From positions 6,386,001-6,450,000 of the forward strand of contig NZ_JASTLB010000001.1 in the NCBI RefSeq assembly GCF_030499535.1: a stretch of 64,000 nucleotides of DNA. Reading direction: 5' to 3'. The stretch comes from Streptomyces sp. TG1A-8. GTDB lineage: Bacteria > Actinomycetota > Actinomycetes > Streptomycetales > Streptomycetaceae. Within the stretch, counting starts at the first letter, position 1. Each line of letters starts with the position of its first letter. Made by a program: the position numbers and the translations under genes. The notes below the pieces were generated by a model, which was given only the letters and a program-made list of their open reading frames with translations, ran no database searches and was not told where the DNA came from. Shown one piece after another: positions 5,026 to 8,208 of the stretch.

Positions 5026-5252
5026 GCGAGGAGTGCCCCGATCCGGCTTTCCGGGCACACGAGCGCCGGGGCCCGGACCGAGCGGGACCGGCCCCCGGGC
5101 GGCGTACCGCCGCACGGGACGCCGCGCGCCCGGTCGTCGTGCCCCCGCCCGCCCGCCGGACCCGGTCGCCCGGGCCGTCCTGCCGCACGCGGCGAGCCGG
5201 GCGACGGCCGTGCGGCCCGCGCCACCGGGAGGGGGTGCCTCTATGTCTTTCG

Positions 5253-6455
5253 TCAAGCGAGGCGTGGGGTTCTGGGTTCGTAGAAGGTGCCGTCGCGGAG
5301 CATGGCGAACAGCACGCTGGTGCGGTGGCGGGCCAGTCGGAGAAGCGCCTGGGTGTGGGTCTTTCCGCGGGCCCGGCATCGGTCGTAGTAGGTGCGGGAG
5401 GCGGGATCGTGCAGGGCGGCGAACGCGGACAGGAACATCGCGCGTTTGAGTTGCCGGTTGCCGCCTCTGGGTGCGTGTTCGCCGTGGATCGAGGTCCCGG
5501 ACGACTTGGTCGTCGGGGCGAGGCCGGCGTAGGAAGCCAGGTGAGCGGCGGTGGGGAAGCTGGACCCGTCGCCGACGGTGACCAGCAGCGTGGCGGCGGT
5601 CCTGACCGCGACCCCGGGAATCGAGGTCAGGACCGGGGAAAGAGGGTGAGCCTCCAGCAGCTGTCCGATCTGCGCTTCCAGGGCTCGTCGCTGTTCGTGG
5701 ACGGCCGCGAGGGAACGGGCCAGGGACGGGATCACGATGTCGAGGGTGCCAGTGCCCGGGACCACGACGGTCTGCTCGTCGAGCGCGTCGAAGACCTCGT
5801 CGATCAGCCGGGCGGCCATGCGCGGGGCCTTGGGCCGGATCACCTCAACGAGCCTGTGGCGACCGGCCTTTCGCAGCGCGGTGGGGGATCCATAGCGTTC
5901 CAGCAGCCAGGTCACGGCCTGGTGGTCCAGGCGTGGGCCAAGGACGCGTTCCAGGCTGGGGTGGAACTGGGTGAGCAGGCCGCGTATCCGGTTGGAGGTG
6001 CGGGTTGCCTCGGCGGCGAGGTCCTGGTCGAAGCCGACCAGCACGGTCAGCTCGGCGGTGATCTCGTCGGTCAACTGGAGCGAGCGCAGGGTGTGCGGCA
6101 TGGTCCGTGCGGCGTCCGCGATCACCGCGGCGTCCTTCGCGTCGGTCTTCGCCTCGCCCGGGTAGAGATCGGCGATCCGCCGCATCGAGAGTCCGGGCAG
6201 GTAGGCGACCTTGCAGCCGGCGTCCCGGGCGACGGTCAAGGGCAGGGCTCCGATGGAAGCGGGCTGGTCCACGATGACCAGCACGGTGCCGAACTTCGCG
6301 GCCAGCTTGTCGAAGACAGCCCGCAGCTTCGGCTCGCTGTTGGGCAGCTGCTTGTCGAAGACTTTCTTGCCGGCCGGGGTGAGACCGTGCCCGTGATGGG
6401 CGCTCTTGCCGACGTCCAAGCCAAGGAAGACGCCCACGTCGTCGATGTCGTCCAA
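5253..6455 (-). CDS. IS110-family transposase (DEDD recombinase), copy 1
   Basis: Chosen start is the TTG at 6455, preceded by GGAGG with about five bases spacing. This gives 400 residues, the usual IS110 length. The open frame continues 49 codons further upstream, but that part overlaps the predicted noncoding left end. The N-terminal RuvC-like domain begins FLGLDVGKSAHHG, with VIVDQPASIGALP and AKTDAKDAAVIAD supplying further acidic residues. The C-terminal Tnp_IS110 domain contains SIPGVAVRTAATLL and SYAGLAPTTKSSG, in the area that carries the family's catalytic serine. The protein catalyses RNA-guided excision and insertion of the element. It appears intact. Confidence 0.9.
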   Translation of the reverse strand: MDDIDDVGVFLGLDVGKSAHHGHGLTPAGKKVFDKQLPNSEPKLRAVFDKLAAKFGTVLVIVDQPASIGALPLTVARDAGCKVAYLPGLSMRRIADLYPGEAKTDAKDAAVIADAARTMPHTLRSLQLTDEITAELTVLVGFDQDLAAEATRTSNRIRGLLTQFHPSLERVLGPRLDHQAVTWLLERYGSPTALRKAGRHRLVEVIRPKAPRMAARLIDEVFDALDEQTVVVPGTGTLDIVIPSLARSLAAVHEQRRALEAQIGQLLEAHPLSPVLTSIPGVAVRTAATLLVTVGDGSSFPTAAHLASYAGLAPTTKSSGTSIHGEHAPRGGNRQLKRAMFLSAFAALHDPASRTYYDRCRARGKTHTQALLRLARHRTSVLFAMLRDGTFYEPRTPRLA

Positions 6456-6716
6456 CCCATCCTCCGGAACGGGGTTCGTGCGGTGCTGGCCAGGGCGTTG
6501 GCGTCGTATGCGCGCATCCACGTTATGCAGACCTGCCGCCTGCAAGCGGCCGGGCATTGCGCCAGGCCAGGCGGTAGTCGGACCTCTCATCAGCGTCTCC
6601 AACGGCGCCTCTCGGGCCCGGTGACACCACCCCCCAGGTCATCCGTTCGACAGGGGGAACAGTCATGCCGGGCCCGGAAGCCAGCGGCCCTCTTGCAGGA
6701 CCGCGAAGAACATAAC
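6456..6716 (-). ncRNA. Candidate bridge RNA region in the left end of IS110 copy 1
   Basis: About 260 bases between the recombinase start and the element end. IS110-group elements encode a structured bridge RNA here, on the same strand as the recombinase, whose loops pair with target and donor DNA. The segment contains hairpins such as GCCGC-CTGCAA-GCGGC (6535-6550). Reading it as protein would extend the recombinase beyond family length. Exact RNA ends and loops were not determined. Confidence 0.45.
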
Positions 6717-6726
6717 GGGGGGGGGG
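6717..6726. repeat. G10 homopolymer at the junction of the two IS110 copies
   Basis: Ten Gs separate CATAAC of copy 1 from TGCCTCTATG of copy 2. The outer boundaries carry five Gs (5231-5235) and six Gs (8209-8214). The crossover therefore lies inside G runs and cannot be placed to the base. Confidence 0.8.
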
Positions 6727-6743
6727 TGCCTCTATGTCTTTCG

Positions 6744-7946
6744 TCAAGCGAGGCGTGGGGTTCTGGGTTCGTAGAAGGTGCCGTCGCGGAGCATGGCGAA
6801 CAGCACGCTGGTGCGGTGGCGGGCCAGTCGGAGAAGCGCCTGGGTGTGGGTCTTTCCGCGGGCCCGGCATCGGTCGTAGTAGGTGCGGGAGGCGGGATCG
6901 TGCAGGGCGGCGAACGCGGACAGGAACATCGCGCGTTTGAGTTGCCGGTTGCCGCCTCTGGGTGCGTGTTCGCCGTGGATCGAGGTCCCGGACGACTTGG
7001 TCGTCGGGGCGAGGCCGGCGTAGGAAGCCAGGTGAGCGGCGGTGGGGAAGCTGGACCCGTCGCCGACGGTGACCAGCAGCGTGGCGGCGGTCCTGACCGC
7101 GACCCCGGGAATCGAGGTCAGGACCGGGGAAAGAGGGTGAGCCTCCAGCAGCTGTCCGATCTGCGCTTCCAGGGCTCGTCGCTGTTCGTGGACGGCCGCG
7201 AGGGAACGGGCCAGGGACGGGATCACGATGTCGAGGGTGCCGGTGCCCGGGACCACGACGGTCTGCTCGTCGAGCGCGTCGAAGACCTCGTCGATCAGCC
7301 GGGCGGCCATGCGCGGGGCCTTGGGCCGGATCACCTCAACGAGCCTGTGGCGACCGGCCTTTCGCAGCGCGGTGGGGGATCCATAGCGTTCCAGCAGCCA
7401 GGTCACGGCCTGGTGGTCCAGGCGTGGGCCAAGGACGCGTTCCAGGCTGGGGTGGAACTGGGTGAGCAGGCCGCGTATCCGGTTGGAGGTGCGGGTTGCC
7501 TCGGCGGCGAGGTCCTGGTCGAAGCCGACCAGCACGGTCAGCTCGGCGGTGATCTCGTCGGTCAACTGGAGCGAGCGCAGGGTGTGCGGCATGGTCCGTG
7601 CGGCGTCCGCGATCACCGCGGCGTCCTTCGCGTCGGTCTTCGCCTCGCCCGGGTAGAGATCGGCGATCCGCCGCATCGAGAGTCCGGGCAGGTAGGCGAC
7701 CTTGCAGCCGGCGTCCCGGGCGACGGTCAAGGGCAGGGCTCCGATGGAAGCGGGCTGGTCCACGATGACCAGCACGGTGCCGAACTTCGCGGCCAGCTTG
7801 TCGAAGACAGCCCGCAGCTTCGGCTCGCTGTTGGGCAGCTGCTTGTCGAAGACTTTCTTGCCGGCCGGGGTGAGACCGTGCCCGTGATGGGCGCTCTTGC
7901 CGACGTCCAAGCCAAGGAAGACGCCCACGTCGTCGATGTCGTCCAA
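6744..7946 (-). CDS. IS110-family transposase (DEDD recombinase), copy 2
   Basis: Encodes the same 400-residue protein as copy 1, with the same TTG start and ribosome site. The single base difference seen between the coding regions is silent. Both copies are therefore probably functional and of recent origin. Confidence 0.9.
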   Translation of the reverse strand: MDDIDDVGVFLGLDVGKSAHHGHGLTPAGKKVFDKQLPNSEPKLRAVFDKLAAKFGTVLVIVDQPASIGALPLTVARDAGCKVAYLPGLSMRRIADLYPGEAKTDAKDAAVIADAARTMPHTLRSLQLTDEITAELTVLVGFDQDLAAEATRTSNRIRGLLTQFHPSLERVLGPRLDHQAVTWLLERYGSPTALRKAGRHRLVEVIRPKAPRMAARLIDEVFDALDEQTVVVPGTGTLDIVIPSLARSLAAVHEQRRALEAQIGQLLEAHPLSPVLTSIPGVAVRTAATLLVTVGDGSSFPTAAHLASYAGLAPTTKSSGTSIHGEHAPRGGNRQLKRAMFLSAFAALHDPASRTYYDRCRARGKTHTQALLRLARHRTSVLFAMLRDGTFYEPRTPRLA

Positions 7947-8208
7947 CCCATCCTCCGGAACGGGGTTCGTGCGGTGCTGGCCAGGGCGTTGGCGTCGTAT
8001 GCGCGCATCCACGTTATGCAGACCTGCCGCCTGCAAGCGGCCGGGCATTGCGCCAGGCCAGGCGGTAGTCGGACCTCTCATCAGCGTCTCCAACGGCGCC
8101 TCTCGGGCCCGGTGACACCACCCCCCAGGTCATCCGTTCGACAGGGGGGAACAGTCATGCCGGGCCCGGAAGCCAGCGGCCCTCTTGCAGGACCGCGAAG
8201 AACATAAC
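7947..8208 (-). ncRNA. Candidate bridge RNA region in the left end of IS110 copy 2
   Basis: Equivalent of 6456-6716, with one extra G in a G run. It lies next to the true chromosomal flank rather than an element junction. It may therefore lack the hybrid junction promoter that copy 1 has. Confidence 0.4.

Follow-up and report, generated by a model that had tools for sequence, protein, structure and literature searches.

Tandem IS110 elements in Streptomyces: probable head-to-tail stacking of related elements at C-runs that their predicted bridge RNAs would specify and that would survive insertion

Introduction

Insertion of a mobile element normally splits its target, which leaves the site protected. 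What, then, produced two nearly identical copies of an IS110 element that stand head to tail in a Streptomyces chromosome with nothing but a run of G between them? The question arose in the window (the whole 64,000-nt stretch of DNA analyzed here), where a first-pass annotation had proposed a tandem that recreates the junction of an excision circle; the Streptomyces minicircle, IS117, is an IS110-family element known as a circle. The answer that we favor, and consider probable, is that a Streptomyces-type IS110 element carries a bridge RNA specifying a plain C-run, that insertion keeps this target, and that kin therefore stack there head to tail; a guide that reads a homopolymer would lift the usual protection of the site.

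An IS110 tandem in the window

The annotated direct-orientation dimer and its single shared junction both held: the two copies lie on the minus strand, separated only by G10.

5231–5235, outer run at the copy 1 right end: G5 (C5 in element orientation), then T
5236–6716, minus strand, element copy 1 (1481 nt), the downstream member in element orientation
5253–6602, minus strand, recombinase ORF of copy 1, 449 aa from TTG
6717–6726, shared junction of the copy 2 right end and the copy 1 left end: G10 on the plus strand (C10 in element orientation)
6727–8208, minus strand, element copy 2 (1482 nt), the upstream member in element orientation
6744–8093, minus strand, recombinase ORF of copy 2, 449 aa
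8209–8214, outer run at the copy 2 left end: G6 (C6 in element orientation)

Comparison over the full length gave exactly two differences between the copies, the number that had been seen at first: A at 5751 versus G at 7242, which is synonymous, and one extra G at 8144, a single base in a C-run. Chance is ruled out for a 1.48-kb direct repeat with two differences, and the recent origin proposed for the tandem is supported. The two 449-aa translations are identical, and assignment to the IS110 family was confirmed by matches in both copies to PF01548 (DEDD_Tnp_IS110, N-terminal; 4.7e–50) and PF02371 (Transposase_20, C-terminal; 1.8e–21). Plasmid relatives, for which 97 of the 98 matching records are Streptomyces, have the recombinase annotated from a later start (about 400 aa); about 260 nt of non-coding sequence separate that start from the left end, and the right end is short. 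By this sequence layout the element is of the IS110 type, with a long upstream non-coding region, unlike IS1111, where that region is downstream; IS1111 elements also have subterminal inverted repeats, which IS110 elements lack. Among the best 60 of 2006 matches, the nearest named elements were ISEc20 (58.8% aa identity) and ISSfl4 (58.5%).

Besides several partial matches, the host genome (7.66 Mb in four contigs) holds two more full copies. The single copy at C1:375991-377483 (0.376 Mb) has the same sequence as copy 2, and the one at C1:1789559-1791050 (1.79 Mb) has one difference from copy 1. This hints at two separate lineages for the window copies, but weakly, since just two sites separate them and one of these lies in a slip-prone C-run.

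Recurrence of the junction

A strict junction pattern was present in two of 392 genomes of the genus, the window's own and G326, and a BLAST query for the junction was spanned (155 or 161 of its 161 bases) in five of them: these two, G165, G233 and G051. The sixth junction lies on the S. albidoflavus NBC_01658 plasmid, the only one among 195 matching plasmid records with at least 80% of the query covered in a single place, and the seventh, from a search of genome contigs, was the single match to a gapped pattern, in S. diacarni. The total is thus seven junctions in Streptomyces-type genomes and plasmids, window included, with runs from C3 to C10 (window 10, G326 9, G165 5, G233 7, G051 3, NBC_01658 8, S. 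diacarni 6). Two plasmid records, NZ_CP108307 and NZ_CP108010, gave two-piece matches in the plasmid search.

Five of 392 is a lower bound, because scoring covered two candidates per genome and draft assemblies are numerous, and it counts head-to-tail junctions only, the kind that these searches detect. Runs of at least seven C or G numbered 12 in 461 kb of the window's genome, which extrapolates to about 200 per genome, and by a rough estimate element ends make up a small but real share of C-run targets; on the same rough footing, the observed frequency of junctions requires no special attraction to element ends. Among the papers listed in the literature searched, which mostly excluded subscription journals, we recognized none that describes IS110 tandems.

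The Enterobacterales element ISEc20 also has C-run ends and also forms tandems: a dimer of identical copies on E. coli plasmid pO177B1, in two strains, and a trimer of three annotated tandem copies in a prophage of E. coli SMN197SH3, two of whose three units differ at one site. It differs from the window's group in its hosts, in the uniformity of its junctions (C4 in three of three, one without the preceding A, against C3 to C10) and in that only near-identical partners were seen. At least 80% of its junction query was covered in 3 of 1462 matching records and 2 of 1443 matching genomes (5426 searched). In NZ_CP007136 and NZ_CP006027, each with 15 matching places, the query occurs near 1139210 as two pieces within 190 nt, which is not a full junction.

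Tandem partners and recombination as a rival

At four of the seven junctions the joined elements are clearly different, with 73–88% nt identity over the aligned parts: the NBC_01658 pair (82.9% across 1458 aligned nt, and 83.0% across 400 aa for the proteins), the S. diacarni pair (aligned in two pieces, at 85.3% and 88.2%, with an incomplete second copy), the G051 pair (73.1% over 1504 columns) and the G233 pair (78.2% over 133 columns; the sequence takes in only 160 nt of the upstream partner, and the downstream one has an internal deletion). The two G326 copies are identical to one another, unlike the three other copies compared. Those of G165 differ at 26 sites, 25 of which lie past position 1150. 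A single copy at 2.55 Mb has the same sequence as the downstream copy and 26 differences from the upstream one; in this genome, as in the window's, one tandem member thus has an identical single copy elsewhere and its partner does not.

Such pairings are what separates insertion at a C-run from the strongest alternative, in which an excised circle joined a resident copy through host homologous (RecA-type) recombination, or a copy was duplicated locally by unequal exchange. Near-identical partners, as in the window, G326, the ISEc20 plasmid dimer and the ISEc20 trimer, are what that alternative expects, and the C4 at all three ISEc20 junctions equals the circle junction as read from the guides; for the identical G326 pair, the plasmid dimer and the near-identical trimer units, local duplication fits as well. 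Two complete and clearly different elements meeting at a clean junction are hard to obtain in this way, however, and the partners in the window and in G165 match different single copies. We regard recombination as an unlikely general account, but for near-identical tandems, the window's among them, a circle that recombined with a resident copy is a fair rival.

C-runs at element ends and at uninterrupted sites

Insertion at a C-run fits the ends of the single copies examined: right ends carry C4 to C12, and left ends nearly all carry at least C4 (disregarding four rows of the left-end list that were made from alignment pieces). Among the matches listed, none spanned an empty counterpart of the window site (41 genomes), none was a clean empty site for the 6 chromosomal sites searched of 16 prepared (121 genomes), and none spanned any of the 6 plasmid sites searched of 11 prepared. 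Uninterrupted sites were recovered for three other insertions. An S. koyangensis plasmid without the NBC_01658 pair has C9 at that place, with a left flank that differs beside the site; the site of the ISEc20 trimer is uninterrupted in E. coli E2863, with C7 (one genome inspected of the 719 with a place covering at least 80% of the site query); and the Nissle site has two E. coli alleles, C4 and C7, with a left flank unlike that of Nissle.

The C-runs themselves have changed, because the counts do not balance: 5+8+8 in the NBC_01658 pair against an empty C9, and 5+4+4+11 in the ISEc20 trimer against an empty C7. One insertion common to two plasmids likewise has left-end (LE) and right-end (RE) runs that differ in length between them. 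Since run lengths change, they cannot date or order the events. The run in the circle was estimated indirectly at C4 (from the guides, by eye, and the ISEc20 junctions) to about C6 (from the C balance); early estimates from loci L033 and L058 had been based on neighboring repeats rather than empty sites. The proposal that the window preserves an excision-circle junction stands as regards layout, which is RE–core–LE as in the circle, whereas with C10 an exact copy is doubtful.

A single C-run can also hold different elements. In an S. albidoflavus NBC 01671 plasmid and in pGBA1 (L059 and L109), elements with 280 differences occupy the same C-run, between flanks that are 100% identical over 496 nt on one side and 99.7% over 1041 nt on the other. 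Such an arrangement could arise if one long C-run was hit twice independently, or if elements stacked and the older one was then lost. At a further pair of loci (L056 and L058, in the S. albidoflavus plasmid NZ_CP109239 and in pGBA1), a relative of the element abuts a repeat of an array that by eye is CRISPR-like, next to cas2e and cas1e; at its right end, one plasmid has C9 with no A and the other has A followed by C6.

A predicted bridge RNA with C-run and G-run guides

In E. coli IS621, also an IS110-family system, a left-end RNA carries a target loop and a donor loop, and the circle has the same RE–core–LE layout (PMC11208160 and PMC11208158). The region upstream of the recombinase gene in the window's element folds better than shuffled sequence (z = –2.92, with 1 of 200 shuffles as good), and the predicted fold begins with a stem-loop at the 5′ side and also has a loop, closed by a stem, whose two sides carry a C-run and a G-run. 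We placed the copy 2 RNA from this fold and a consensus fold and named its guides by eye, using the published rule (PMC11208160); copy 1 was annotated by position. All are on the minus strand.

8001–8199, predicted bridge RNA of copy 2, ends approximate
8140–8153, putative left target guide of copy 2 (C6)
8118–8130, putative right target guide of copy 2 (G6)
8095–8103, putative left donor guide of copy 2
8009–8018, putative right donor guide of copy 2
6509–6707, predicted bridge RNA of copy 1
6649–6661, putative left target guide of copy 1 (C5)
6627–6639, putative right target guide of copy 1 (G6)
6604–6612, putative left donor guide of copy 1
6518–6527, putative right donor guide of copy 1

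In the consensus fold of 21 relatives, 5 of 60 pairs change on both sides in at least one relative, with a covariation term of only –2.11, and in the closing stem of the target loop one pair has changed on both sides in 3 of the 21. The fold does not show a clearly open donor loop, and the consensus places part of the putative left donor guide in base pairs. At a loose threshold, Rfam returned nothing beyond two sub-threshold matches to one unrelated small RNA.

Under that rule, left guides pair with the bottom strand and right guides with the top strand, core included (PMC11208160), and the target loop read accordingly would call for a CC core flanked on either side by C-runs. The putative target guides consist of a C-run and a G-run, the latter uninterrupted and unshortened, in 19 of the 21 aligned relatives (the exceptions are L018 and L070). 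The putative donor guides correspond by eye to the element's own ends: AGAGGCGCC fits AGAGGCACC of the right end but for one mismatch, and CGTTATG of the left end pairs with CATAACG. ISEc20 and ISSfl4 resemble the window's element in having an upstream non-coding RNA region with a C-run and a G-run at the position of the target loop; in ISEc20, by eye, GTAACG goes with the left end CGTTAC and the target guides are of the same kind. IS621 differs in having a CT core and a specific target, where for the window's element we infer a CC core within a C-run. The two target guides pair with each other in the predicted fold, a mutual pairing that a homopolymer target would force.

The C6 versus C5 difference between the window copies falls inside the putative left target guide, so their targets may be slightly different.

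A model for stacking at C-runs

These features suggest the following course. The excised circle would be the donor, RE–CC core–LE, led to a C-run by the C-run and G-run target guides. Recombination at the CC core, presumably by the element's own enzyme, would leave the inserted element flanked on each side by a C-run, both runs on one strand, so that the target survives insertion. Each resident would then offer two further C-run sites in the same orientation, and because both are oriented alike, a second circle inserting at either end, whether from the same element or from a relative, would produce a head-to-tail tandem. Related elements could thereby stack or replace one another. Beyond what the first-pass annotation had offered, the tandem recurs and can join different elements, which is best explained by a C-run target that survives insertion.

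A broader reading, which we hold only tentatively as just short of evenly balanced, is that a homopolymer-targeting bridge RNA makes each insertion a landing pad for kin, giving arrays and swaps; the heterodimers might then be intermediates of a swap between different elements at one C-run in sister plasmids. The same reading includes a role for the complementary target guides: their mutual complementarity closes the free target loop in the predicted fold, and the target may be needed to open it. A guide that does read a homopolymer would give a natural example of RNA-guided insertion that recurs at a single site, of mobile elements exchanging with their relatives and of self-pairing guides; RNA-guided IS110 recombinases are under development as DNA-writing tools. 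Through ISEc20, stacking at C-runs can be tested in E. coli. The enzyme of IS30 belongs to another class than that of IS110. IS30 also forms tandem dimers with an end-to-end junction (PMC9333248), but it moves by copy-out-paste-in, and its junction is a reactive intermediate as against the settled chromosomal state in the window.

The junction as a proposed promoter

Promoter-like boxes had been noted facing one another across the G run, and their positions and spacing were confirmed.

6709–6714, minus strand, TATGTT, –10-like, in the copy 1 left end (motif only)
6742–6747, minus strand, TTGACG, –35-like, in the copy 2 right end, 27 nt from TATGTT

The promoter itself was not borne out. A promoter is reported to form at the circle junction of IS621 and of other family members (PMC11208160 and PMC11187229), and most relatives examined share TTGACGAA at the right end and TATSTT at the left end, both of which would suit a junction retained as a permanent expression unit driving the downstream bridge RNA and recombinase. 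Against this, the boxes lie 27 nt apart here and, by arithmetic, 20–26 nt apart at the six other junctions; a scan of 6450–6900 for sigma-70-type sites, made on the chromosomal tandem, found none, in contrast to the junction promoter demonstrated in IS621; and tandems are rare (5 of 392 genomes, and 2 of 1443 E. coli genomes with ISEc20 ends), so selection for them is not suggested. We accordingly rejected a promoter reconstituted across this RE–LE junction and consider retention as an expression unit improbable, although the junction may be transcribed. By arithmetic, removing the C-run would bring the boxes (6709–6747 in the window, and at the ends of relatives) to a spacing of exactly 17 nt.

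The least probable reading is that the tandem is an assembly error with a single copy in the cell: a near-identical 1.48-kb repeat is difficult to assemble, yet an assembly duplicate is an unlikely source of the second copy, because the copies differ at two sites, each is nearest a different single copy and the genome is in only four contigs, and the same arrangement is found in single-contig assemblies (G326, G165 and G051) and with divergent partners.

Other insertion sites

At G326:C1:965450-966941 (L013), the two halves of the flank lie about 1.4 kb apart in six other genomes (G016, G020, G033, G080, G111 and G117), which would be consistent with a loss of adjacent DNA from G326. In G068, the same insertion with the same flanks occurs at C1:80815-82305 and at about 12.0425 Mb (L107 and L108), near both chromosome ends and presumably within the terminal inverted repeats.
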